DNA of 64,000 nucleotides from contig NZ_KB217478.1 of NCBI RefSeq assembly GCF_000331305.1, forward strand, positions 6,187,646 through 6,251,645, in the 5' to 3' direction. The number at the start of each line of letters is the position of its first letter. Position 1 is the first letter of the stretch. Below, one piece after another: positions 19,594 through 41,627 of this stretch. A program made the translations under genes and the position numbers. The stretch is from Calothrix sp. PCC 7103 (GTDB lineage: Bacteria; Cyanobacteriota; Cyanobacteriia; Cyanobacteriales; Nostocaceae). Below the pieces are notes generated by a model. It was not told the origin of the DNA. It saw nothing but the letters and a program-made list of their open reading frames with translations, and ran no database searches.

Positions 19594-20599
19594 AATTCAG
19601 TGGAACTCAACTCCCCTTATTAAGGGGGACTTTAAGATATTTTGTCCCCCCCTTATTAAGGGTTAGGGGGGATTTAATTTTATTATGTTTGTTAACGTTT
19701 GCACTACCAAGTCTTGCAAACCCTCATTATGCACAAAATATTACCACAATAACTCAAAACCAAAAATCTCAAACCGACCAAGGTAAACTATTATATGATG
19801 CCGGCAGATATTCAGAAGCCGTGCAAATATTACAGCAAGCAGTACAAGAATATCAAAAAAAAGGTGATGCTTTAAAACAAGCTGCCACCTTGGGTAACTT
19901 ATCTTTAGCATATCAGCAGCTTGGTAATTGGAAGTTGGCATCTGAAGCACTTACAACTAGTTTGCGTTTACAAGGAGCAGAACCAGCTAATAAAAATTTA
20001 TTGGCCCAAACTTTAATTATACAAGGGAACCTATTATATTCTACAGGGCAAACTAATGCATCGCTCTCGACTTGGGAACAAGCAGAAAAAGTATTTGAGA
20101 AAGCAGGTAATAAATATGGCAGTTTGAAAGCGCGTGTTTACCAAGCACAGTCACTAAAAATATTGGGTTACTATTATAATGCGGTTAAACTTCTCAAAGA
20201 AGTAAATGCAGCATTTTACTCACAACCAGATTCTATAGAGAAATTAGCGGGTTTGCGTTCGCTAGGTGATGCTTTGCAACTAGTTGGAGATTTAGAGAAA
20301 TCACGCATAATTTTAGAACAAAGTTTAAAAGTTGCTCGTGGTTTAAATAATAATACTGAAATTGGCAAAAGTTTATTTAGTTTAGGAAATCATGCACTTT
20401 CAGAGCGAAAATTACAGCAAGCTATTGAATATTACAAACAAACCTTTGATATATCTCCATCACCGCAAATTAAAGTCGAAGCATTACTTAATCATGTAAG
20501 TTTATTAATACAAGCTAAAAAATATACAGAAGCTACAAGCTTAATTTCTGTAATTGAACCACTACTTCAACAACTTCCACCAAGTCGCACAGCTATTTA
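19545..20599 (+). pseudogene. CHAT-TPR protein, 5' part (split by IS)
   Basis: N-terminal 351 codons of a CHAT-TPR gene interrupted at codon 352. The ATG at 19545 overlaps tpsB by 49 bp. Residues 14-40 are encoded by an inserted palindromic repeat, after which a hydrophobic signal segment (LILLCLLTFALPSLANPHYA) leads into TPR repeats such as GKLLYDAGRYSEAVQILQQA and ATLGNLSLAYQQLGNWKLAS. Joining bases 19545-20599 to 22296-23895 gives 2655 bp, exactly 885 codons, and a continuous PSRTAIYTRINFAER. The break is therefore a simple IS insertion. CHAT-TPR proteins are caspase-like peptidases, and in cyanobacteria they often follow TpsB genes. Confidence 0.9.
19612..19671. repeat. CCCCTTATTAAGGGG palindromic repeat
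   Basis: Two copies of a CCTTATTAAGG-centred palindrome flank 'gactttaagatattttgt'. The unit sits between tpsB and the CHAT gene and lies within the CHAT reading frame, where it codes LLRGTLRYF and PLLRVRG. Its placement ahead of the signal segment suggests that the repeat displaced the native start. Confidence 0.6.
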
Positions 20600-22289
20600 G
20601 GGTTTGCTGAAAAAGACAGAAAACCTAGTACTCTCGGATTATCAGACCACAGAGATATATCCAGGTGCAAGAAAAGAAGGTAGAATTACCCAAAATCCTT
20701 GCATCTGCGTGAATAGCACAAAAGTGCTTGTTAGTAGCCATGTACCGAAAACAAGAGCAGCCTATCATCTCAGTAGAAAACTTTGAGCTTCCAGCCGGGA
20801 GGAAGTTATCAGAAGATAATCGTTGGGTAATTATGGCTTCTTTCGTACCTTGGACAGAATTTGAAGAGGAATATTCTTCTTATTTCTCTTTAGATATGGG
20901 GGCGCCAGCAAAGCCGTTTCGGATAGCGCTAGGTGCATTAATCATCAAAGAAAAATTAGGCATAAGTGACAGAGAAACAGTTGAACAAATCAAGGAAAAC
21001 CCCTATCTACAGTACTTTATAGGAATGTCATCCTATGGTAATGAGGTGCCATTTGATGCATCAATGTTAGTCTACTTTAGAGAAAGAATCAGTGCAGAAT
21101 TAGTCAATAAAGTTAATCAAGAAATGGTTAAGAAGATGTTAGAGGCTGCATCTGAAGAATTAACTGAAAAAAAAACAGAAGAAGAAAAAGAGGGTAACAC
21201 TCCAAAAAATCGTGGAAAGCTAATATTAGATGCGACTTGTGCGCCTGGGGATATCAGCTATCCGACAGATTTAGAGTTATTAAATCAAGCCCGAAAACAA
21301 ACAGAACGAATAATAGACTTACTTTATGAACAAATAAGGGGAACATTAGAGAAAAAGCCAAGAACTTATAGAGAAAAAGCCAGAAAAGACTATTTAGAAG
21401 TAGCTAAAAAACGTCATGCGTCCCAAAAAGATAAAAGAAAAGCGATAAAAAAACAACTCCAATATATTAAAAGAAACCTATTTCATATTGACCAGCTAAT
21501 GAGTTCAGGAGCAACTCTCGAAAATTTAACTAATAGACAGTATAAGATGTTGCTTGTCGCTGAGGAAATATATCGCCAACAACTATGGTTGTATGAAAAT
21601 AAAAAACAGAGTATTGATGACCGCATTGTTAGTTTAACTCAACCGCACATCCGCCCAATTGTCCGAGGTAAAGCAGGTAAAACTGTGGAATTTGGCGCTA
21701 AATTATCGGCTAGTTACTTTGATGGATACGTATTTTTAGACCATGTTAGTTGGGATAATTTTAATGAATCAGGAGATTTAAAAGCACAAGTTGAAGCATA
21801 TAAAAATTATACTGGTTATTATCCGGAATCCGTTCATGTGGATAAAATTTATCGAACAAGGGAGAACCGAGCTTGGTGCAAAGAAAGAGGTATTGTAATG
21901 AGTGGGCCAGCGTTAGGGAGACCAAAGGCTAATGTTAGTAAAGAAGAAAAGAAGCAAGCTTTGGAATCTGAGAGAATTCGTAACTCTATTGAAGGAAAAT
22001 TTGGACAGGGTAAAAGAAGATTTAGCCTTAATCGAGTCATGGCCAAACTGCCTCATACTTCTCTAACTGCAATTGCTATTACTTTTTTAGTAATGAACCT
22101 TTCTACTCACCTGTCACGGGTTTTTTATGCGTTTTTATGTCTATTTTTCAAAAATAGGTCTTTTTTAGAGTTTAAAACAACAGAAACCTATAGTTTAGCA
22201 ATTGATAGATAATAAAAACTTATTTTTGATTTTGCTTGAATAACTGGTCAACCCTCAAGATTGCTTTTTCAGACTTTTTCAGCAAGCCC
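20600..22289 (+). mobile_element. 1690-bp IS with TANNTA target, copy 1
   Basis: The left end GGGTTTGCTGAAAAAG (20600 onward) and the complement of the right end, GGGCTTGCTGAAAAAG (ending 22289), are 16-bp terminal inverted repeats with one mismatch. TATTTA is duplicated at 20594-20599 and 22290-22295. One transposase gene fills the element. Excision of the IS with one TATTTA restores the CHAT frame. Halves of a second copy lie at 34945-36009 and 40623-41262. It has one GGCGCC site. The DDE transposase with a DUF772-like N-terminus points to the IS5/IS1182-type superfamily; the exact family needs ISfinder. Confidence 0.93.
20740..22212 (+). CDS. IS transposase (DUF772/DDE type)
   Basis: Transposase of the IS at 20600-22289. 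The likely start is ATG 20740 (MYRKQEQP), although TTG 20728 is in frame. The N-terminal domain (residues 30-125) carries the pattern MGAPAKPFRIALGALIIKEK followed by YLQYFIGMSS. The catalytic fold begins at GKLILDATCAP, where the first Asp fits the DDE triad. A long Lys/Arg-rich coiled insertion (about residues 185-265) follows; then FGAKLSASYFDGYVFLDHVS, YPESVHVDKIYRTRENRAWC with a candidate second Asp, and ESERIRNSIEGKFGQGKRRF with the candidate Glu. The frame appears intact, so this copy could be active. Confidence 0.9.
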   Translation: MYRKQEQPIISVENFELPAGRKLSEDNRWVIMASFVPWTEFEEEYSSYFSLDMGAPAKPFRIALGALIIKEKLGISDRETVEQIKENPYLQYFIGMSSYGNEVPFDASMLVYFRERISAELVNKVNQEMVKKMLEAASEELTEKKTEEEKEGNTPKNRGKLILDATCAPGDISYPTDLELLNQARKQTERIIDLLYEQIRGTLEKKPRTYREKARKDYLEVAKKRHASQKDKRKAIKKQLQYIKRNLFHIDQLMSSGATLENLTNRQYKMLLVAEEIYRQQLWLYENKKQSIDDRIVSLTQPHIRPIVRGKAGKTVEFGAKLSASYFDGYVFLDHVSWDNFNESGDLKAQVEAYKNYTGYYPESVHVDKIYRTRENRAWCKERGIVMSGPALGRPKANVSKEEKKQALESERIRNSIEGKFGQGKRRFSLNRVMAKLPHTSLTAIAITFLVMNLSTHLSRVFYAFLCLFFKNRSFLEFKTTETYSLAIDR

Positions 22290-23895
22290 TATTTACACGC
22301 GAATTAACTTTGCAGAACGTTTAATGCAAATAGACCGTAATATGCAGCATCCTTATGCTGTACTTGCGACTGCTATTCAAATTGCGCGCGATATTAATGA
22401 TAATCATGCATATGCATACGCATTAAGTGAGATGGGAGAGTTGTATGAAAAAACGCGACAGTATCCAGAAGCGCTAAAATTAACGCAAAAGGCTTTGGTA
22501 ATAGCGCAAGCAGAAAATGTAGATGATATGATTACGTATCAATTACAGTGGCAGCTTGGTCGATTGTTACGTACACGAAAAGATATTAAAGGCGCCATTG
22601 CGTCATATGATGCAGCAGTACAAATACTATCAAAACTTCGCAGTGACTTAGTAGCGGTGAATACTGATGTACAGTTTAGTTTCAAGGAGAGCGTAGAACC
22701 AGTATATCGTCAATTGGTCGCACTACTTCTAGAATCGCAAGCTCCAGGGCGCCCAGACCCAAAAGTTCTTGATAAAGCACGTCAGCATATCGAAGCTTTG
22801 CAACTTGCCGAACTCGATAACTTTTTTAAAGAAGCTTGTTTACAAGGCAAAAAAGTTGTCTTAGATAAAGTTGTAGATAAAGAGAATCCAAATACAGCTA
22901 TACTTTATCCGATTATTCTTGCTGACACACTCCAAGTTATAGTCAAAATTCCCAATCAACAGTTAAAACTTTACACAACTAAAATAAGTCAAGCTGAAGT
23001 AGAGACAACAGTTGCCCAACTCAGACACGATTTAATTGACCCTTCAGCAACTGAAAGCTTAAAAATTCAATCGCAAAAGCTTTATACATGGCTAGTTAAA
23101 GAGTTAGAACCGAATTTGGCGCCTAATGGTGTTAATACTCTTGTATTTATTCCTGATACTGTATTGGGTAGCATACCATTCTCAGCGCTCTTTGATGGAA
23201 AAAATTACTTGATTGAAAAATATGCAATTGCAATGAATGCGGGGTTACAGCTTTTAGACTCTCAACCATTGCCAAGACAAAAGCTAAATGCTTTAACTGC
23301 TGGTTTAATCGAACCCCCACATCCATATAAAGAATTTGCTTCCTTACCTGGAATAAAATTAGAGTTCGAGCAAATTAACCAAGCTGGGATTAAAACCAAA
23401 ACATTGCTGAATCAGCAGTTTACAAGTAAACAATTAGACAATTTAGTTCAGGATACACCTTTTAACATTGTTCATCTTGCCACTCACGGTCAATTTAGTT
23501 CGCGTGTCGAAGATACGTTTATTTTGGCAGCTGATGGACCCATTAACGTCCGTCAATTCGATAATATATTGCGTAGTCGTAATCAAACCCAACAAGAAGC
23601 TTTGCATTTGCTTGTTTTAAGCGCTTGCCAAACTGCCGAAGGTGATAAACGTGCTGCACTTGGTTTAGCTGGAGTCGCTATTAAAGCAGGTGCCCGTAGT
23701 ACACTTGCTTCATTATGGCAAATCGAAGATGAACCAACAGCAATATTTGTAGGTGAGTTTTACCGCAAGTTGAAAGACGCAAAACTTAGTAGAGCAACTG
23801 CACTACAACAAGCACAGTTAAAACTTCTCAACCATCCTAATTACAAGGCGCCAACCCATTGGGCAGCATATGTATTAATAGGTAATTGGTTGTAA
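22290..23895 (+). pseudogene. CHAT-TPR protein, 3' part
   Basis: Continuation of the split CHAT-TPR gene. TPR repeats persist (YALSEMGELYEKTRQYPEAL, WQLGRLLRTRKDIKGAIASY), followed by the C-terminal CHAT domain with both catalytic positions: His in FNIVHLATHGQFSS and Cys in LLVLSACQTAEGD, plus ALGLAGVAIKAGARS and VGEFYRKL. The domain is complete to VLIGNWL, so the gene was whole before the IS arrived. Without a start it is probably not translated unless the IS supplies one. It belongs to the secretion neighbourhood, where such a protease-like factor might process or regulate the exported adhesin. Confidence 0.9.
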
Positions 23896-34414: not shown

Positions 34415-34569
34415 ATGACTAGTAATATTTACGCATTATTAGTAGGTATTGATAACTATACGGCGCCCGTTAGTCGGCTCCAGGGCTGCATCAATGATGT
34501 AATAGCTGTAGAAGAATATTTAGAAACACGGGTAAAAACTGAAGGATGGAATTTACACTTAAAAATTCT
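34415..34569 (+). pseudogene. Caspase-like (C14) domain, 5' fragment
   Basis: MTSNIYALLVGIDNYTAPVS followed by RLQGCINDVIAVEEYLETRV and GWNLHLKIL is the N-terminus of a cyanobacterial caspase-like peptidase. The reading breaks exactly at 34570, where an ISL3 end begins. A WD40 fragment in the same orientation reappears at 41265 on the far side of the nested insertions. The simplest reading is one caspase-WD40 gene split by 6.7 kb of mobile DNA, with its middle lost. The frame also opens at ATG 34400. Confidence 0.82.
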
Positions 34570-34944
34570 GGCTCTTCCGTACTTAGCGTGCCAAATTAAC
34601 ATTATAGTGCCAAGAAAGTAAAGCTCTAATTTCAAAATTACGGAAGTTCTTAAAGCCAAATCCACTTCTTTTTATTAGCTTCAATTTATTATTAATTCCT
34701 TCTACAACACCATTAGTAGTTTTGTTATCAAAATATCCTGCTACTTCTCCAAACCATCGTTTAATTGTATTAACACTTTTTTGATAATAAGGTTCAGCTT
34801 TTTCTAACCAATCAAGTAGCCCTAATATTCCTGTTCCTGGGTCTTCACTCGTATCAAATAAATTGCGTTCACGCAGTGTACCGCAGGTAAATTCTTCTTT
34901 CAATGAATGCATTGTTGCTATTAAAGGAGATGCTTCTCTAATTA
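34570..34944 (-). mobile_element. ISL3 family remnant (transposase C-terminus)
   Basis: The end GGCTCTTCCGTACTTAGCGT at 34570 matches the ends of the relic at 46770. Just inside, the minus strand (stop 34583) encodes the end of an ISL3 DDE transposase: YFDNKTTNGVVEGINNKLKL followed by IKRSGFGFKNFRNFEIRALL. Reading upstream it stays open to 34944, where the IS begins, and the first half of the transposase is missing. The remnant is dead. Confidence 0.85.
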
Positions 34945-36009
34945 GGGTTTGCTGAAAAAGTCCTAAACAAACAATCTTAAGGTTGATTAATTATTCATGC
35001 AAATTATTAGATAGCTTTTAGTTATTTATAAATTGCATATTATAATTTTTGTTTATGCCAAGCTCGAAAAAAGGTCTATTTTTGAAAAATAAATATAAAA
35101 AGGCACAAAAAACCCGTGACAGGTAAGTAGAAAGATTCATTACTAAAAAAGTAATAGCAATTGCAGTTTTAGAAGTATGAGGCAGTTTCGCCATCACTCT
35201 ATTAAGACTAAATCTTCTTTTAGCTTGTCCAAATTTCCCCTCAATACTATTACGTACTCTTTCAGATTCCAAAGCTTGCTTTTTTTCTTCTTTACTAAGA
35301 GTCTTTGGTCTTCCTAGAGGGGGTCCACTCATTTTAATACCTATGCACTTTACACCAAGCTCGGTTTTCTCTTGTTCTATAAATTTTATCAACGTGAACA
35401 GATTCTGGATAATAGCCAGTATAGTTTTTATATGCTTCTACTTGTGCTTTAAAATCTCCCGATTCATTAAAATTATCCCAACTAATATGGTCTAGGAACA
35501 CATATCCATCAAAGTAGCTAGCTGACAGTTTAGCGCCAAATTCTACACTTTTCCCTACTTTACCTCGTACAATTGGGCGGATATGCGGTTGGGTTAAACT
35601 AACAATGCGGTCATCAATACTCTGTTTTTGATTCTCATATAACCATAGCTGCTGACGATAGATTTCTGAAACTACAAGTAACATTTTCATATTGTCTGTC
35701 AGTTAATTTTTCTCGCTAGAACCCAATTATCAACTGATTAATATGAGCTAAATTTCTCTTAATATCTTGAAGTTGTTTTTTTATAGCTTTTCTTTTCTCA
35801 TTCTGGGATGGACGACGTTTAGAAGCAACATCTAAGTAGTCTTTTCTAGCTTTCTCTCTATAAGTTCTTGGTTTTTCTCTAATGTTCCCTTTAGTTCTTC
35901 ATAAAGTAAATCTATTATTCGCTCTGTGTGTTTTCGGGCTTGATTTAATAGTTCCAAATCTGTTGGATAACTTATATCTGCTGGCGCGCATGTCGCATCT
36001 AATAGATTC
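34945..36009 (-). mobile_element. IS copy 2, transposase 3' half (degenerate)
   Basis: It starts at 34945 with GGGTTTGCTGAAAAAG, the terminal repeat of the IS at 20600, and reads (minus strand) from LLDATCAPADISYPTDLELL to the C-terminus of the transposase. At least two frame disruptions (near 35350 and 35700) make it inactive. The matching 5' half is at 40623-41262. Subtracting the 4.6-kb insert leaves about 1.7 kb, the length of copy 1, so the two halves are one IS. The flanks differ (TAATTA here, TAGCTA at the other end), so this copy is probably a recombinant of two insertions. Confidence 0.88.
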
Positions 36010-36023
36010 TCTAAGGTTTTAAG
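36010..36023. repeat. Left inverted end of the recombinase element
   Basis: TCTAAGGTTTTAAG; it matches the complement of 40609-40622 at 12 of 14 positions. IS transposase coding sequence resumes within a few bases outside it. Confidence 0.65.
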
Positions 36024-36265
36024 TTTTTCTTTACCCCCTGGTTAAAAATATAAAAACCTAAGATATGAATGATGTTAAAGATTTGCGTATCATAGTAATT
36101 TTTCATACGAGCATCAAAATACGGTTAGAGTTTCATTCAAATTTATACATTCTGCTCAAGGTGTAAAAAACAATTAGAAAGTAAGAAGACGCTCCTAATG
36201 GCGCCGCTATGCGCTCACAATTTTTGTAAGCGCTGCCACAAGTCCTCCAAACCCCTAAGAGGATA

Positions 36266-36319
36266 CCTGTTTTTGGCTGACCAACCTCCCTGCCGGTCGG
36301 TTAGTCTGTCAAAAACAGG
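36266..36319. terminator. 54-bp imperfect hairpin at the element's left end
   Basis: CCTGTTTTTG (36266-36275) and CAAAAACAGG (36310-36319) pair exactly, with further partial pairing inside (GCTGACCAACC against GGTCGGTTAGTC). It lies 90 bp beyond the stop of the last element gene and 240 bp inside the left end. It may end the operon transcript or be a recombination or secondary-structure site. The remainder of 36024-36410 has no gene. Confidence 0.5.
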
Positions 36320-36410
36320 TTAAAAAAATCATAAAAAACAGGTGTATAGAATCTTAAATTTCAGTTGAGTTGGAGCCGTCATGATCCAACTGATTTGAAA
36401 ATCGCGCATT

Positions 36411-38204
36411 TTAAGTTTTCATGGATGGAAATTCAATTTCTAATGTGGTAGTTGATTCACTCGGTTGAGAGTTTTTCGGTTGTTGAGGGTAAACAATCTC
36501 ACGCGGAATCCAAGTATAACCAAAGGCTTGAGTATCTTCCCATCCTAGAAAACGTAAAATTCCACCACCAGCAATATCTGCCATCATCACACCTACAGTT
36601 TTTCGTAGGGTGTTAGGATTACAAATAGTACCATTAACTTTGAATGAAGCAGAACGGACTATTTGAGATGGAAAAGTTTTCCCAACAGGTTTATTATGGT
36701 GAGCACTGGAAGTAGAAACGAGTAGGTATTGATTATTTTGATGTGTATTTTTGAGTTGACGTATTAACTCTATACTTTCAAGATGCGGTCTAAGCCAAGG
36801 TAAAGCATTTTTGGGAATATTAAGTTTTAAACTTGGACGACCAGGTGAGTGTTTACCACAAGATGGTTCTTTTTTGGGTACAATAAAATAATCAACTTCA
36901 GATAACTTTAGAGGTAAAATACCAAGAGTAATTGGAATTACGCAGGGAATTTGAACGTGGCGTAACTCCCAAACAGAAAGAGCATGAAAAATAATCAGAT
37001 ATAAAACAATTGCTTCAATTGGGTCAGCGTCAGGTGAGATAATGTAAGAACATAGTTGTCTAATTATTTCTAGGGGATAATGACGAATGGTTGGGTTGTC
37101 TGCGCGAATCGAGCGTTGAACAGGATTAATAATTACCATTTTATTCATTAAAGCCCAGTCAAAGAATACTTTTAATTTCCCTCGATGTTGACGTACCGTG
37201 TTTTGAGCTAAACGTTTTACTTGTACGTATGAACCAACAGCGCCACAACAATTACAAACTTTCGGTGCCAAGCGATGATTTGGGTCAAATGGTATAATCA
37301 TTTGGCACAAAGAGCATTGCCATTGAAAGTTTAACGTCAACAAGTAATTATTAATTAGCGATGGTTGTACTTCATGAGGTAGGTTAATAGAATGTTGAGC
37401 GCTCCATAGCCAAAAAACGCTTAGTGTTTCCAAGTGGTCTCTAACGTTAGAAAATACAGTTTTTCTTGACCCTAGCCAAGTCGCATAGTCATTCATTAGT
37501 TGTTGTAAATGTTCAGGAGCATTGCGAATTGGCATTAAAGCACGGCGTCTCGAAAGATATAGTTCTCGACTTTCTATTTGACCCAAAGATGCTAATAAAT
37601 GTCCAAGTTCAAATAAACAAGAGCGAATCAGCATTGGATTAGTTCGACCCGTAGCTCCAAGCTTAGGTAAGGCATTATCTATTGCAGACCAAGTTAAAGG
37701 TTGAGTCAGTTGATTTGCTTGCAAAAAACGACCAAAGATGCGAAATCTTCGATTTTTATTATTGTCAACGCAATCCCAATTGATATTTTTAGCAATCAAG
37801 TCGAAAAGAGTTTTATTGTATGGATATGGTGTACTAAAATTTGTGAGATAGGCAAGTAATGAATCTCGTGCTAGACGATTTTGATTACACAGCTGGCACA
37901 ATTGATGAGACTTGTTATACAAAACTTTAAACTGACCACATTGTGAACAACGTTGATAACCATACCGTCTTTCTCTCCAACAAGCACGACATATCTGTTC
38001 ACCAAGTAAAGCTGAGGATTTCATACAACCACAAACAGAACATTCAATTTTATTCTGTTTAGCTTTTCGACTAGCATGACGTGCAATTTGTTGACAAGTC
38101 TGACATAACCAATCTGTTTGATTATAAATTGGTTTAGTTTGAGAGCAACGACTACAGGTTGCTATAGGTCGTTCTTTTATTTTTGTTACATCGTGGGCAT
38201 AGCC
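36411..38204 (-). CDS. Degenerate tyrosine recombinase with zinc ribbons
   Basis: This frame is open from 38204 to the TAA at 36411; the first Met codon is at 38024 but coding resemblance extends above it. The N-terminus holds zinc-ribbon CxxC pairs (TCSRC/LCQTC, CSVCG/ICRAC, CSQCG/LCQLC). A sixth (CSLCQ/VCNCC) lies in the middle. Then come a core-binding-like segment (NTVRQHRGKLKVFFDWALMN) and a C-terminal recombinase fold. Arg I is replaced (ALSVWELR where GLRxSEL is usual), HxLR is NTLR, LGH is LGW, while a Tyr remains (AFGYTWI). It may be an accessory, non-catalytic partner. A +1 shift joins it to the ORF above. Confidence 0.75.
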   Translation of the reverse strand, partial: GYAHDVTKIKERPIATCSRCSQTKPIYNQTDWLCQTCQQIARHASRKAKQNKIECSVCGCMKSSALLGEQICRACWRERRYGYQRCSQCGQFKVLYNKSHQLCQLCNQNRLARDSLLAYLTNFSTPYPYNKTLFDLIAKNINWDCVDNNKNRRFRIFGRFLQANQLTQPLTWSAIDNALPKLGATGRTNPMLIRSCLFELGHLLASLGQIESRELYLSRRRALMPIRNAPEHLQQLMNDYATWLGSRKTVFSNVRDHLETLSVFWLWSAQHSINLPHEVQPSLINNYLLTLNFQWQCSLCQMIIPFDPNHRLAPKVCNCCGAVGSYVQVKRLAQNTVRQHRGKLKVFFDWALMNKMVIINPVQRSIRADNPTIRHYPLEIIRQLCSYIISPDADPIEAIVLYLIIFHALSVWELRHVQIPCVIPITLGILPLKLSEVDYFIVPKKEPSCGKHSPGRPSLKLNIPKNALPWLRPHLESIELIRQLKNTHQNNQYLLVSTSSAHHNKPVGKTFPSQIVRSASFKVNGTICNPNTLRKTVGVMMADIAGGGILRFLGWEDTQAFGYTWIPREIVYPQQPKNSQPSESTTTLEIEFPSMKT

Positions 38205-38370
38205 CTAATAATGAAACTTGGCGCTTCATTTCACCGCAACGAGAACAAAGATTTGTTGGCTGATTGCAATAGCATTGGCGACAAATGTCACGGTCTTTAA
38301 AATAAGTAAACTTCATGCGACCGCAAAATTCGCAGGTAATTAAGCGTTTGTAATTATCTGTATTTTTCAT
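38152..38370 (-). CDS. Zinc-ribbon N-terminal segment, frame-shifted from next gene
   Basis: A 72-residue ORF with two treble-like zinc ribbons: CEFCGR...DICRQC and LCSRCG...GLCPRC. It stops at a TAG where the +1 frame continues with the next ribbon (TCSRC...). Together the two frames give five ribbons at regular 30-35-residue spacing and a 652-residue protein. The ORF therefore is the N-terminus of the recombinase gene, split either by a one-base indel or by programmed +1 frameshifting within the 53-bp overlap (38152-38204, containing AACAAAAATAAAAG). It starts 9 bp after the 74-residue gene. Confidence 0.65.
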   Translation of the reverse strand: MKNTDNYKRLITCEFCGRMKFTYFKDRDICRQCYCNQPTNLCSRCGEMKRQVSLLGLCPRCNKNKRTTYSNL

Positions 38371-38379
38371 TGACCCGGC

Positions 38380-38604
38380 TCAAACTGATAATTCTTCTGG
38401 TTGTAAAATCATTGAAACGTCTATTAATTGATGTGATTGTTCAACTGCATCAATTAAAGCAAGTGCATCAAAATCTTTCAAAATAGTTGCTTCATAACCG
38501 TTAGTCCAAGTGATAATAACGGTTGGTGGGCTAGGTTCAAACTCAATTAAACGAATTTGTTCAAGGTTGAGAATGTAACGAGGTAATTTAATAAATATAG
38601 CCAT
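38380..38604 (-). CDS. 74-residue element protein, unknown
   Basis: A small soluble protein (MAIFIKLPRYILNLEQIRLI followed by EFEPSPPTVIITWTNGYEAT). Its predicted beta-rich N-half and helical C-half give no family hint. It has a well-placed AGGAC region before its ATG and sits 36 bp after the GIY-YIG gene and 9 bp before the zinc-ribbon gene. Its fixed place in the operon suggests a role in recombination or control of the element. Confidence 0.6.
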   Translation of the reverse strand: MAIFIKLPRYILNLEQIRLIEFEPSPPTVIITWTNGYEATILKDFDALALIDAVEQSHQLIDVSMILQPEELSV

Positions 38605-38640
38605 AAGTCCTCCCAGTCAATCAAACCGTTCATTGAACGA

Positions 38641-38919
38641 TTATTTATTGTGATTTTGATCTTCACAAAAAACAGCAAGTTTTTCTGATGGCGATAAACG
38701 CTTCATTTGATATTCTGCGACTCGTGCCTCTGTTCTGGTATTAAAAGTCCAAAACCTCAGCAGTTTTAATGGTCGATTAATACGTGTGTAACGCCCTCCA
38801 CGTCCTGCATTGTGTGCAGCAATACGTTGTGAGACATTCTTTGTCGAACCAACATAAAGTACACCACTAGCACATTGAGCTAAATAGACATAGTATTTTT
38901 CATGTGTTTGTGCGTCCAT
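38641..38919 (-). CDS. GIY-YIG endonuclease (UPF0213-like)
   Basis: A 92-residue single-domain GIY-YIG nuclease. The core YYVYLAQCASGVLYVGSTKN gives the VYL...LYVG strands; SQRIAAHNAGRGGRYTRINR supplies the catalytic Arg and the following His-rich loop, and ARVAEYQMKRL the metal-binding Glu. Such small proteins nick or cut DNA. Inside a recombinase element it could process ends or act in defence or competition. It lies 37 bp after the XRE gene. Confidence 0.88.
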   Translation of the reverse strand: MDAQTHEKYYVYLAQCASGVLYVGSTKNVSQRIAAHNAGRGGRYTRINRPLKLLRFWTFNTRTEARVAEYQMKRLSPSEKLAVFCEDQNHNK

Positions 38920-38956
38920 AACTATTACTCATTCGATAGCTTTTGAAGAAAGTTAT

Positions 38957-39316
38957 TCAACCACGATTTGTAAATTCATGCGGGTCGGGAAAGATACTTT
39001 CATCCGATAAAACTTGTTTTTTACCACCGTATAAACGCTCTGGAACACTAGCCTTTGTTTTAGTTTTTTTGATAGTTACTTCAACTGGGTCGGGCTGCAC
39101 TTCACAAAAGTCACTTAGTTTACAATCTAAAGCATTACAAAGAGCCTGAATTGTTTGAAGTCTTAGAGCATTTGGTTTGCCATTAATTAGTGCGGAAACT
39201 GCCTGAAGTGATAATTGTACTCCTGCTTTAGAAGCTAGTAATGCTTGTAGTTCAGAAGCTCGGTAGATATCCCGTTCTACTGCTAGCCACTTTTTTAGCT
39301 TCCACACAACTGGCAT
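38957..39316 (-). CDS. XRE/Cro-type regulator
   Basis: A 119-residue protein with a helix-turn-helix domain: ASELQALLASKAGVQLSLQA followed by VSALINGKPNALRLQTIQAL and CNALDCKLSDFCEV, typical of HTH_26-type regulators. A basic linker and short tail follow. It starts 18 bp after the integrase stop. Three related AAGYTTAAC-type repeats upstream of the integrase (40491-40561) are candidate binding sites, so it probably autoregulates the element operon. Confidence 0.85.
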   Translation of the reverse strand: MPVVWKLKKWLAVERDIYRASELQALLASKAGVQLSLQAVSALINGKPNALRLQTIQALCNALDCKLSDFCEVQPDPVEVTIKKTKTKASVPERLYGGKKQVLSDESIFPDPHEFTNRG

Positions 39317-39334
39317 AAAATTTCTCCTTTACAC

Positions 39335-40474
39335 TTAACTAGTCTCACTCGTAAGCGAACCTACAATTTCTTCAATCGCTTTCTCATAGTATGACTGACT
39401 ATGCCTAACATAGCGGTGTAATGTACCTGGATTCAAGTGACCCATTAAATCCATTAATACCCATACTTTATCCGGTTGCTTCTCCATAAAGTTCGTTGCG
39501 AATGATCTACGCAAACTATGCCAGCTTAAATGTTGTGGTAGGTCTAAACCTACCTTCACTGCTGCAATTGCAATTACATGCAAGTTACGCCACATTGTCT
39601 GATATGAAATTCTGTCACCACTCTCACTTAAAAACAGTGCTGGATTCTCTTTTGAACAAGGAAAGTTCGGTCGAATACGCTCCTCATAAACACGCATCGT
39701 CGCCTGAGCAAACGGCGTAAAAATTGTTTTACGTACTCGTTTTCCAGAACCAGACGCTGCTTTACCAAAGCGGGTTTGAATGCTGTTTTGTTGATAAAAT
39801 AAATCCCGATGTGGTTTTAATGCATCTAAGTGTAAAATCTCCGAAGCTCTTAAACCGCTTTCTGCTGCCAATACAATCATTGTATAGTCTCTTGAAACTG
39901 GTAGCTTTTTCTGATTACCACTAATATATGTTGTGCGTATAAACTCATAGAACTCAATCAGACTTTCGCCGGTCAGCACAAAACCTTCTTCATCTGAATC
40001 AAGTGTATGTATAGGATAGTCATATTCCAAGACTGGTTGCTCAATACGACCATACTTTGCTACCAATAACTGAGTATTTTCTCCTGGTATATACGGACAT
40101 TCAAGCACGTACTCAAATAATCGTCTGAGTTTACCTAGGTATCCTTGTACTGTACGCACTTTTAAATCAGCGCTTACCAGCCCTTTACCAAACTCCACAA
40201 TCCTCTGCCGTCCTGTAATTGGACTCATTGCTTCCCAAATCAATAATTGCCTTTCACCCAATGGATATAAGTCGTCTTTTATTATTAAATTCTCGAACCA
40301 ACCCTTTAAGAACCTGCGTTCTGATTCAATAGTTAGCTCGCTATGGTTACGCGTAACATGAGTATCTAAATACCCCTGTAAGATAGCTTCGTGGTCTGCT
40401 AGTTTCTCTGCAAAAGTTATAGGAGCAGAAACTATCGACATGTCATGAACTATGGCAAGGTGTGGACGACTCAT
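39335..40474 (-). CDS. Tyrosine recombinase/integrase (intact)
   Basis: A 379-residue XerC/D-like recombinase. A SAM-like core-binding domain spans residues 28-125; the catalytic domain has Arg I at residue 209 (ESGLRASEIL), His319-x-x-Arg322 (WHSLRR), His346 (LMGHLNPG) and the nucleophile Tyr355 (TLHRYVRH). All catalytic residues are present, so it is likely active and moves the surrounding 4.6-kb unit. It is the first gene of the minus-strand operon; about 150 bp separate it from the right inverted end and contain repeated operator-like sites. Confidence 0.93.
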   Translation of the reverse strand: MSRPHLAIVHDMSIVSAPITFAEKLADHEAILQGYLDTHVTRNHSELTIESERRFLKGWFENLIIKDDLYPLGERQLLIWEAMSPITGRQRIVEFGKGLVSADLKVRTVQGYLGKLRRLFEYVLECPYIPGENTQLLVAKYGRIEQPVLEYDYPIHTLDSDEEGFVLTGESLIEFYEFIRTTYISGNQKKLPVSRDYTMIVLAAESGLRASEILHLDALKPHRDLFYQQNSIQTRFGKAASGSGKRVRKTIFTPFAQATMRVYEERIRPNFPCSKENPALFLSESGDRISYQTMWRNLHVIAIAAVKVGLDLPQHLSWHSLRRSFATNFMEKQPDKVWVLMDLMGHLNPGTLHRYVRHSQSYYEKAIEEIVGSLTSETS

Positions 40475-40490
40475 ATTTAGTCTCCCCCTT

Positions 40491-40561
40491 CAAGCTTAAC
40501 TTGTTTTACCTAATCATAACCTATTTTATTCAAGTTAAACTTGATTTACAAAGCTTAACCC
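40491..40561. promoter_or_regulatory. Three operator-like repeats before the integrase
   Basis: CAAGCTTAACTTG (40491-40503), CAAGTTAAACTTG (40531-40543, a perfect 13-bp palindrome) and CAAAGCTTAACCC (40549-40561) lie within 71 bp upstream of the integrase ATG. Palindromes of this size fit dimeric XRE regulators such as the one encoded in the same operon. Confidence 0.6.
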
Positions 40562-40622
40562 TTTATTTGACTAGGTTACACGCTTAGTAACAATGTTCTG
40601 ATTAGATACTAAATACCTTAGA

Positions 40623-41262
40623 TTGTGCCAGTACTAATTTCCCAAGATTTTTAAGCTCACTTATTTCTTTTTCTGATAGTTCTGTTTTTTTTTCAGTATC
40701 AATTGAAGATGCAGCGTCTAACATCTTCTTTACCGTTTCTTGATTTACTTTGTTGACTAGTTCTACACTAATTCTTTCTCTAAAATGAACTAACATCGAT
40801 GCATCAAATGGTGCTTCATTACTATAAGATGACATCCCTATAAAGTATTGTAGATAAGGGTTTTCCCTTATTTGCTCTACCGTTTCTCTATCGCTTATAC
40901 CTAATTTTTCTTTAATTATTAATGCCCCTAATGCCATCCGGAACGGCTTTGCAGGCGCCCCCATTTCTATAGAGAATGAAGTTGAATACTCGTCCTCAAA
41001 TTCTGTCCAAGGTATTAAAGAAGCCATGATTACCCAACGATTATCTTCTCTTAGCTTCCCCTCAAATGGAAGTTGAAAGTTTTCAGGTAGAATTGGAGGC
41101 TGCTCCTGTTTTCGGTACATGATTACTAATAAGCACATTTGAGTGCTAGTCACGTAGATGCAAGGATTTTAGGTAATTTTACCTTTTTCTCTTGCATCTG
41201 GATATATTTCTTTGGTCTGATAATCTGATGGCGCCTGTTTTTCCCTCTTTTTCAGCAAACCC
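40623..41262 (-). mobile_element. IS copy 2, transposase 5' half
   Basis: The right part of the split IS. The terminal repeat (CTTTTTCAGCAAACCC) ends at 41262. The minus strand encodes the transposase N-terminus from MYRKQEQPPILPENFQLPFE to ELKNLGKLVL, where the 4.6-kb element begins. Relative to copy 1 it diverges by many substitutions. It is followed by TAGCTA (41263-41268), while the other end is flanked by TAATTA; copy 1 is flanked by TATTTA. The target pattern TANNTA is shared, but unequal flanks indicate recombination between two insertions. Confidence 0.88.
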
Positions 41263-41264
41263 TA

Positions 41265-41432
41265 GCTAGCAGTAGTGATGATACAATAGTTCGCATTTGG
41301 GATTTACAGAATCGTAAATTTCATCGTTTTAATAATAACGATTTTGCCAATATTACTAGTTTTGGCGCCCCTTCATTTTTTTACAGCTTTTTAGGCGCCG
41401 CGACCGCATCGCGGTCGCGTGCTTTAGTCTAA
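41265..41432 (+). pseudogene. WD40 repeat fragment (3' end of caspase-WD40 gene)
   Basis: Directly after the IS end the plus strand reads ASSSDDTIVRIWDLQNRKFH and ITSFGAP; the phrase SDDTIVRIWDL is a classic WD40 blade end. It stays open to TAA at 41430-41432, with the last residues encoded by a GC-rich palindrome (GCGACCGC-atc-GCGGTCGC, 41400-41418). It has the same orientation as the caspase fragment at 34415 and is probably the 3' remnant of that gene. Confidence 0.75.
41400..41418. repeat. GCGACCGC/GCGGTCGC hairpin
   Basis: Exact 8-bp GC-rich arms around a 3-base loop, just before the stop of the WD40 fragment. Its composition stands out from the AT-rich surroundings and it may be an inserted repeat. 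Confidence 0.5.
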
Positions 41433-41627
41433 AGTCCAGTTAGTATATAACTCCTAAATTATTTTAATGTCTGCTTCAAACCGAGTCTTATTTTAAAATT
41501 GAGTTAGAAGAAGGCTTTTAATAATTGCGTTATAGCAGATAATTTGTTCTAGTTAAAATGACTAGCTACCTGACTGCCTGTTTTCTTTCTCTTTGAATTA
41601 ATAAGTAATAAATGTATCTTTTTTGTA

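Follow-up and report, generated by a model that had tools for sequence, protein, structure and literature searches.

Tsy transposons, described and reconstituted with ZooTsy of Zoogloea (Faure et al. 2023, PMC10293859), encode a tyrosine recombinase (YRec), a helix-turn-helix (HTH) protein, TnsF, in which zinc fingers are combined with a recombinase fold, and a GIY-YIG nuclease. In that source the element splits comM at its Walker B motif, with the 5' part of the gene upstream of YRec, passes through circular intermediates and yields 62.3% simple insertions. Transposition suffers from the loss of any one gene; catalysis by YRec and by TnsF is essential and the nuclease is not; target reading takes place within 40 bp upstream, and the authors detected no inverted repeats (PMC10293859). 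We analyzed a stretch of 64,000 nucleotides from the Nostocaceae member Calothrix sp. PCC 7103 (contig NZ_KB217478.1, positions 6,187,646 to 6,251,645; hereafter the window), whose genome measures 11.58 Mb, and in which a unit of 4,629 bp (36005-40633) lies inside the transposase gene of an IS5-family insertion sequence (IS). Judged from its sequence, this unit is very probably a mobile Tsy-type transposon of Nostocaceae, a variant in its target, its gene order, the residues of its TnsF-like protein and its definable ends. We class it so because the gene set and the splitting of the target fit the Tsy plan.

The original prediction for this segment had proposed an undescribed mobile system that matched no known type of element and came nearest to Tn554 and RIT elements. 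The mobile unit stands, but the word undescribed does not, as the four gene types and the split target are those of Tsy, published in 2023 (PMC10293859); Tn554 and RIT are cousins in plan, and Tsy is nearer. The likeness covers the same four gene types, a YRec gene placed upstream and a target gene split so that its 5' part lies upstream of YRec, and both elements use a conserved NTPase motif as target, here at two of six sites.

The element reads on the minus strand from its recombinase end at 40633 to its tnsF end at 36005, the copy of a 6-bp overlap being counted at the recombinase end. These limits were set by an empty IS site and by the context of a second insertion in the same genome (locus L009), and they extend 5 and 11 bp further than the 36010-40622 first proposed. 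The interrupted IS copy has its 5' part at 40634-41264 and its 3' part at 34939-36004, both on the minus strand, and an intact copy without the element lies at 20589-22295 (plus strand, judging by the reversed direction in which it aligns with the interrupted copy). In a family scan the pieces of the split transposase, 40602-41153 (N-terminal), 35334-35690 (middle) and 35018-35392 (C-terminal), match successive parts of NF033578. The claim that the segment splits an IS transposase gene is thereby confirmed, and so is the arithmetic by which the interrupted IS minus the segment leaves about 1.7 kb, the length of the intact IS. At the observed empty sites the ends coincide with the break in homologous sequence. 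The gene order, which it had been suggested to seek elsewhere, recurs in related genomes, where it holds no fixed position: counting the own genome and relatives, the element occupies six target sites in five kinds of gene. As had been noted, the element is almost free of the word GGCGCC, with one occurrence where the frequency in the rest of the window predicts about 6.9. Outside the element the window holds 88; the word is repeated window-wide and has hardly been acquired by the element.

Five tightly packed, co-directional genes had been claimed. All lie on the minus strand with gaps of 9-37 nucleotides between neighbours, and the count of five holds if a conserved 74-amino-acid frame is included and the broken zinc-ribbon gene, which is not one open frame, is taken as one. 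Downwards from 40474 to 36411 their order is YRec, HTH, GIY-YIG, the 74-amino-acid protein and the zinc-ribbon protein. The YRec gene (39335-40474; 379 amino acids) is assigned by Pfam PF00589 (2.2e-17), alignment and motif positions, and the Arg, His-x-x-Arg, His and Tyr that we take to be the catalytic motifs are all present. The HTH gene (38957-39316) encodes an XRE/HTH_26 protein of 119 amino acids (PF13443, 2.1e-11, and alignment), and the GIY-YIG gene (38641-38919) a nuclease of 92 amino acids (PF01541, 8e-14, and alignment). The 74-amino-acid protein (38380-38604) is found also in L009 and in the relatives L064 and L082 and is not listed in a further relative, L065; the window and L064 copies, when scanned, gave no Pfam match. 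Last comes the tnsF-like gene (36411-38370), encoding a zinc-ribbon array and a recombinase-like region. It is frameshifted, and its two pieces (38152-38370 and 36411-38024), read at first as frames of 72 and 537 amino acids, belong to one gene of about 640-670 amino acids broken by a single-nucleotide frameshift near 38187.

This last gene is open in L009 (671 amino acids), L064, L065 and L082; in L009 it is the YRec gene that is frameshifted instead. Each of the two frameshifts comes down to one nucleotide, and stretches of N interrupt several copies in the assembly, so that sequencing error is possible for both. As it reads, the frameshifted tnsF-like gene probably leaves the window copy non-autonomous. 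L064, L065 and L082 have open reading frames for YRec, HTH, GIY-YIG and the zinc-ribbon protein alike; as in Tsy, they show an operon of YRec, HTH and a TnsF-like protein with N-terminal zinc fingers. L064 and L082 share the order YRec, HTH, GIY-YIG, a protein of 74 or 76 amino acids and TnsF-like, and L065 and L087 are without the 76-amino-acid gene. The nuclease gene, open also in L087, lies upstream of tnsF in these four relatives and is mostly deleted in L083 and L088. In the Nostoc desertorum copy (L083, 9526-12860) an internal deletion took most of the nuclease gene, and a transposase-like gene lies, as judged by eye, in the tnsF-end region. Upstream of the recombinase gene of the window stands the perfect palindrome TCAAGTTTAACTTGA (40530-40544), a candidate operator of the HTH protein; candidate operators had been noted in the element from the start. 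The form TCAAG-N5-CTTGA is present upstream in three of the five copies examined (window, L082 and L065) and is not seen in that form in L064 and L083.

The ends of the element can be defined to the nucleotide. At the recombinase-proximal junction the 6-bp overlap is TACTGG (40628-40633, minus strand), the same in all own-genome copies with a readable proximal junction (L009, L010R, L011 and L013); at the distal junction it is TATTAG (35999-36004, minus strand), which belongs to the target and is found likewise in the empty IS copy. Inwards from the overlap, both ends show 6 nucleotides and then, at nucleotides 7-19, an inverted half-site: CTAAGGTATTTAG at the recombinase end (40609-40621, minus strand) and CTAAGGTTTTAAG at the tnsF end (36011-36023, plus strand). 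The inverted ends seen at first are thus real, with 11 of 13 positions identical, but they are situated 6 nucleotides inside the overlap. Identity is 9/13 in L065 and 7/13 in both L064 and L082. In four representatives from three lineages the half-sites begin 7 nucleotides from the overlap on both sides, zero offset being best in two and tied best in two, and this common register supports the 6-bp overlap. The proximal overlap is TACTGG also in L065/L087, TAGTGG in L064 and L083 and TGCTGG in L082. At all four sites with an observed empty allele, one relative or more has exactly the distal 6 bp in that allele: TATTAG in IS5, TGCTGG and TTCTTG in the strawberry-notch gene, and TAACAG at the CheR-type site in L099; the CheR-type empty alleles of L100 and L101 depart from TAACAG at 2 and 1 positions, respectively. 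Given that the reverse arrangement, expected under random resolution of heteroduplexes, is not seen, a strand bias is suggested. The proximal TGCTGG of L082 (at 1910-1915 of that locus) equals the strawberry-notch target of a related element and is possibly the footprint of an earlier location; a fixed sequence would better account for TACTGG, which does not change among the own-genome copies.

The terminal 21 nucleotides of the tnsF end are open in the downstream target frame at 6/6 sites, as read by eye and, for L091, by computation, and would encode (K/E)LKT(L/S)E(N/K). Several differences between lineages in this stretch (window 36005-36030 and the distal ends of L009, L064, L065, L082, L083 and L091) appear by eye to be synonymous, and in L082 an in-frame ATG lies upstream of it.

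The insertion points, marked here by a slash in the protein sequence, are LI/LDAT in the IS5 transposase (window and copies), EWV/TDI behind the CheR domain of a CheR-type gene (L009), DLV/LEPSAGTG in the methyltransferase part of a strawberry-notch protein (L064, L083 and L088), KV/LEPSAGKG in another methyltransferase-like gene (L082), GWF/LGDGTGAGKG in the helicase part of strawberry-notch (L065/L066, L087 and L092) and I/LTGGPGVGKT in a RecD-like helicase (L091, distal junction only). Pfam matches are strong for CheR, the RecD-like helicase and AAA_34/strawberry-notch; those to methyltransferase domains are weak and below the cut-off. The names Walker A, methyltransferase motif I and DDE are attached to these sites on our own assumption, and by them four of the six lie at what is presumably a Walker A or a motif I. 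Empty alleles were seen directly for the IS5, the CheR-type and both strawberry-notch sites, and the L082 and L091 sites were read from their junctions only.

At all six sites the element genes share the direction of the interrupted gene, whose 5' part lies upstream of YRec and whose 3' part, in the same sense, lies beyond the other end (five sites with both junctions, one with the distal junction only). At all six, too, the overlap begins at codon position 2 in the sense of the gene. The chance of such a shared orientation and phase is (1/6)^5 = 1.3e-4 if sites are independent and uniform, and (1/6)^4 = 7.7e-4 is the safer figure because both methyltransferase sites fall in the same motif; nor were the six sites sampled at random, and codons for a hydrophobic residue, Leu and an acidic residue or Gly naturally yield T-N-Y-T-N-G, which is near the element's own overlap. 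A self-splicing intron was considered as a cause of codirectional, in-phase insertion and rejected: an Rfam scan of 34500-41500 gave no match at E<=1, and in the copies read a stop codon closes the target frame no more than about 25 codons into the recombinase end.

A plausible course of movement would begin with YRec joining both ends at the 6-bp overlap, flanked by the inverted half-sites, to give a circle. The TnsF-like protein, with its zinc ribbons and putative recombinase fold, would read the target and bring the circle to one exact position, where YRec would exchange strands at the overlap, leaving the element's 6 bp at the recombinase end and placing the target's 6 bp at the other. Such an insertion would not duplicate a longer piece of the target. 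A role of the HTH protein in recombination is probable, as ZooTsy is impaired without it, and the protein may also repress the operon through the upstream palindrome; the GIY-YIG protein would be an accessory nuclease.

The pairing of one active with one degenerate tyrosine-recombinase-like protein, next to an XRE regulator and a GIY-YIG nuclease, had been recognized from the start and is borne out. The zinc-ribbon array has 12 CxxC motifs in each of three Nostocaceae proteins checked. The TnsF-like alignment comprises 7 sequences from four lineages, 2 of them from decayed copies, with the register of the motifs set by eye; in it the second Arg, the Trp and the Tyr are conserved in 7/7 sequences. 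The C-terminal region matches the integrase profile phrog_1 in 5/6 members (best 6.4e-9), and integrase SAM-like Pfam domains were found in three to four of six, the one score shown being below its cut-off. These profile matches are what argues for a recombinase fold in the TnsF-like protein.

Several observations weigh against the assignment to Tsy. All 7 aligned TnsF-like sequences have Ser or Thr in place of the box-I Arg and Asn or Lys in place of the box-II His, so that two catalytic residues appear lost here, activity being read from sequence, whereas TnsF catalysis is essential in ZooTsy (PMC10293859). Two fold predictions of the TnsF-like protein had a mean pLDDT of 51.6 and 35.7, too poor for a structure search, hhalign comparison of the TnsF-like with the YRec-type profiles found no similarity, and searches of the PDB with the TnsF-like protein matched no recombinase. 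ZooTsy has its nuclease gene downstream of tnsF, the present element upstream of it, and comM is not among the six target sites found. Membership in Tsy further rests on architecture, the ZooTsy proteins having been compared by their description. Within the plan, the comM Walker B target is replaced in the Nostocaceae elements by Walker A, methyltransferase motif I, the IS5 LDAT and the site behind the CheR domain, and half-sites and a 6-bp overlap are definable here (compare PMC10293859).

Could the element belong to the strand-biased circularizing elements (SE), GInt or Tn554 rather than to Tsy? Several traits would fit. SE elements (SE-6283 and SE-6945; PMC10214605, PMC9345347) follow a 6-bp spacer rule, have imperfect inverted ends of 13-19 bp and few targets, and carry in Tfp a recombinase-fold partner without the catalytic motif; GInt (PMC5385486) has a third recombinase-like protein, GinC, without the first Arg; and Tn554, with the actinobacterial Tn554-like pairs (PMC3414803), joins one ordinary to one long recombinase; RIT elements have several adjacent recombinase genes. 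The gene sets, compared by these descriptions, nevertheless part company. SE has two RHRY recombinases, intA and intB, with srap, where one intact recombinase is found here; GInt has ginABCD with three integrase genes and cargo of 2.5-70 kb, against two recombinase-like proteins here; in Tn554 both TnpA and TnpB are catalytic and many members have TnpC, while the second protein here is without two catalytic residues. RIT has three recombinase genes, ritA-C, and the source text on the Tn554-like pairs mentions no HTH or GIY-YIG partner (PMC3414803). Two or more recombinase genes are thus the rule in SE, GInt and RIT, and srap, ginD and tnpC are used by SE, GInt and Tn554, whereas one intact recombinase with HTH, GIY-YIG and a zinc-ribbon TnsF-like protein is the Tsy set. 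The ends differ too: SE places the 6 bp of the circle at the recombinase-distal end and those of the target at the proximal end, and the constant 6 bp here are proximal, at four sites with an empty allele. The arrangement is the mirror image of the SE rule, and with groups that are set apart by their own descriptions, membership in any of the three is very unlikely. TnsF of the Tn7-like Tn6022 resembles the TnsF-like protein in joining zinc fingers to an inactivated recombinase fold for target choice, but works with TnsA, TnsB, TnsC and TniQ (PMC10293859), none of which appeared in family scans of the element's proteins.

The Tsy-type reading draws further support from the copies within the Calothrix genome. 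The second complete copy, L009 in the CheR-type gene, is 98.5% identical to the window copy over 4,304 bp, and in the final ~330 bp, on the tnsF side, identity drops to 82-84%. Contig C12 holds gap-broken copies at L010 (two) and L011, and contigs C5 and C7 each end in half an element (L012 and L013), the two of which may make up one copy; these gap-broken and contig-end copies occupy the same nucleotide of diverged IS copies. Between IS-borne copies the element is 97.5-100% identical (10 comparisons over more than 100 bp; a 61-bp piece of L012 gives 94.5-95.1%), while the IS flanks are 77.9-90.2% identical in 14 of 16 gap-free comparisons. The window and L011 share 100% over 696 and 163 bp of element, with IS flanks at 88.5% and 81.7%, and the window and L010A share 99.85% over 685 bp, with an IS flank at 81.1%. 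Near-identical elements in diverged flanks mean repeated entry at the same nucleotide, at least in the window, L010A and L011. Two of the 16 comparisons count against this, as the window's flanks match those of L010B at 98.0% and those of L010R at 94.6% and do not require independent insertion; L010B and L010R are probably parts of a single IS copy near the window's.

Spread among IS copies by homologous recombination or gene conversion, with no part for the element's own recombinase, could produce a similar picture, and the left flank of L011 is indeed a mosaic: beyond about 400 columns it is near-identical to the intact IS of the window (21224-22300; mostly bins of 97/100 to 100/100, the last 43/46), and nearer the junction 74-93 of 92-100 columns match that IS. 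Conversion should carry identical flanks beside the element, yet in the columns adjoining the junction only 74/92 (L010A, left) and 67/93 (L011, right) agree with the window copy. The mismatches start at most 11 bp from the junction edge in L010A and directly outside the overlap in L011, which argues against such spread, and the CheR insertion would be left unexplained; we consider this route highly improbable. Equally improbable is a single insertion followed by copying of IS and element as a composite by the IS transposase, the element being no longer mobile, which would suit the same nucleotide occupied in all IS-borne copies with readable junctions, the one intact empty IS copy among 15 matches listed and the similar flanks of the window, L010B and L010R, a pair that could be a composite copy, but is largely refuted by the flank divergence against element identity just given and by the complete copy in the CheR-type gene, outside this IS, and the relatives in other genes.

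It is about an even matter whether Nostocaceae Tsy elements move with one active recombinase while TnsF serves purely as target reader, four lineages having been re-aimed, each at its own stretch of DNA: methyltransferase motif I (in two genes), the strawberry-notch Walker A, the RecD-like Walker A, and the IS5 motif with the CheR-type site. Were this so, a target code could be read from the zinc-ribbon array, and the unvarying sense and codon phase would reflect recognition, by the element, of DNA held constant by protein motifs. The sequences suggest that the Nostocaceae branch may do without the second catalytic activity, which ZooTsy requires. Natural TnsF variants with exactly known targets (42-52% identical to the L009 protein) make site choice by zinc fingers directly testable, the 6-bp overlap and half-sites give a defined core site, and inserting DNA at a set nucleotide that can perhaps be retargeted would hold practical interest. 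Tsy is here extended from Zoogloea and comM, as published, to cyanobacteria and at least six target sites; this novelty is judged on the open-access literature, and the published tree of TnsF homologs may hold some cyanobacterial Tsy.

Of 217 genomes in the family, 7 matched a TnsF-like profile: the Calothrix genome itself and six others, which carry relatives; a second TnsF-like profile matched 4 of 388 genomes of the order, two as weak fragments (E 3.4e-4 and 4.6e-4) and two in the window's family. The single 537-amino-acid piece as query found only its own genome among 148. YRec has matches at E<=0.001 in 191 of 386 genomes of the phylum, of which only G000 and G467 are better than 1e-100, the next best being 4.2e-11; the weaker matches listed were taken for ordinary recombinases because they are partial and of 25-36% identity. 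Named hosts, for seven loci, are Rhizonema sp. PD38, Nostoc desertorum CM1-VF14, Desmonostoc muscorum FACHB-395, Nostoc sp. UCD121 and Nostoc mirabile CHAB5784. No relatives were found in the viral contigs and phages searched or in a first scan of genome contigs with the single YRec, and plasmids gave no match to the 537-amino-acid piece of the window.

With the L065 TnsF-like protein as query, plasmids gave weak matches only (45 records at E<=1, best 3e-7), and six non-cyanobacterial plasmid regions, chosen for such matches, were inspected. L113 (Nocardia) and L117 (Streptomyces) encode YRec, HTH and a zinc-ribbon protein in this order, the zinc-ribbon proteins having 762-835 amino acids. L112 (Rhodococcus) has HTH and a zinc-ribbon protein of 765 amino acids with no YRec annotated, L114 (Streptomyces) a 689-amino-acid zinc-ribbon protein without YRec or HTH, L116 (Nocardia) YRec, HTH and a 390-amino-acid protein without CxxC, and L115 (Bacillus subtilis) YRec, HTH and a 421-amino-acid protein with three CxxC. 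Pairwise hhalign, whose values are for single pairs with no database calibration, gave 99.8% for YRec (E 9.2e-30), 98.2% for HTH (2.9e-14), 98.6% for the zinc-ribbon protein (1e-15, partly cysteine-driven) and 98.0% for the Bacillus protein (2.2e-13, catalytic region). In L115 (2939-6818, a plasmid of Bacillus subtilis PRO31) the YRec-HTH-TnsF-like operon is directly followed by genes that match Gabija GajA (1.2e-277) and GajB (9e-220), so that the Bacillus branch may carry anti-phage cargo.

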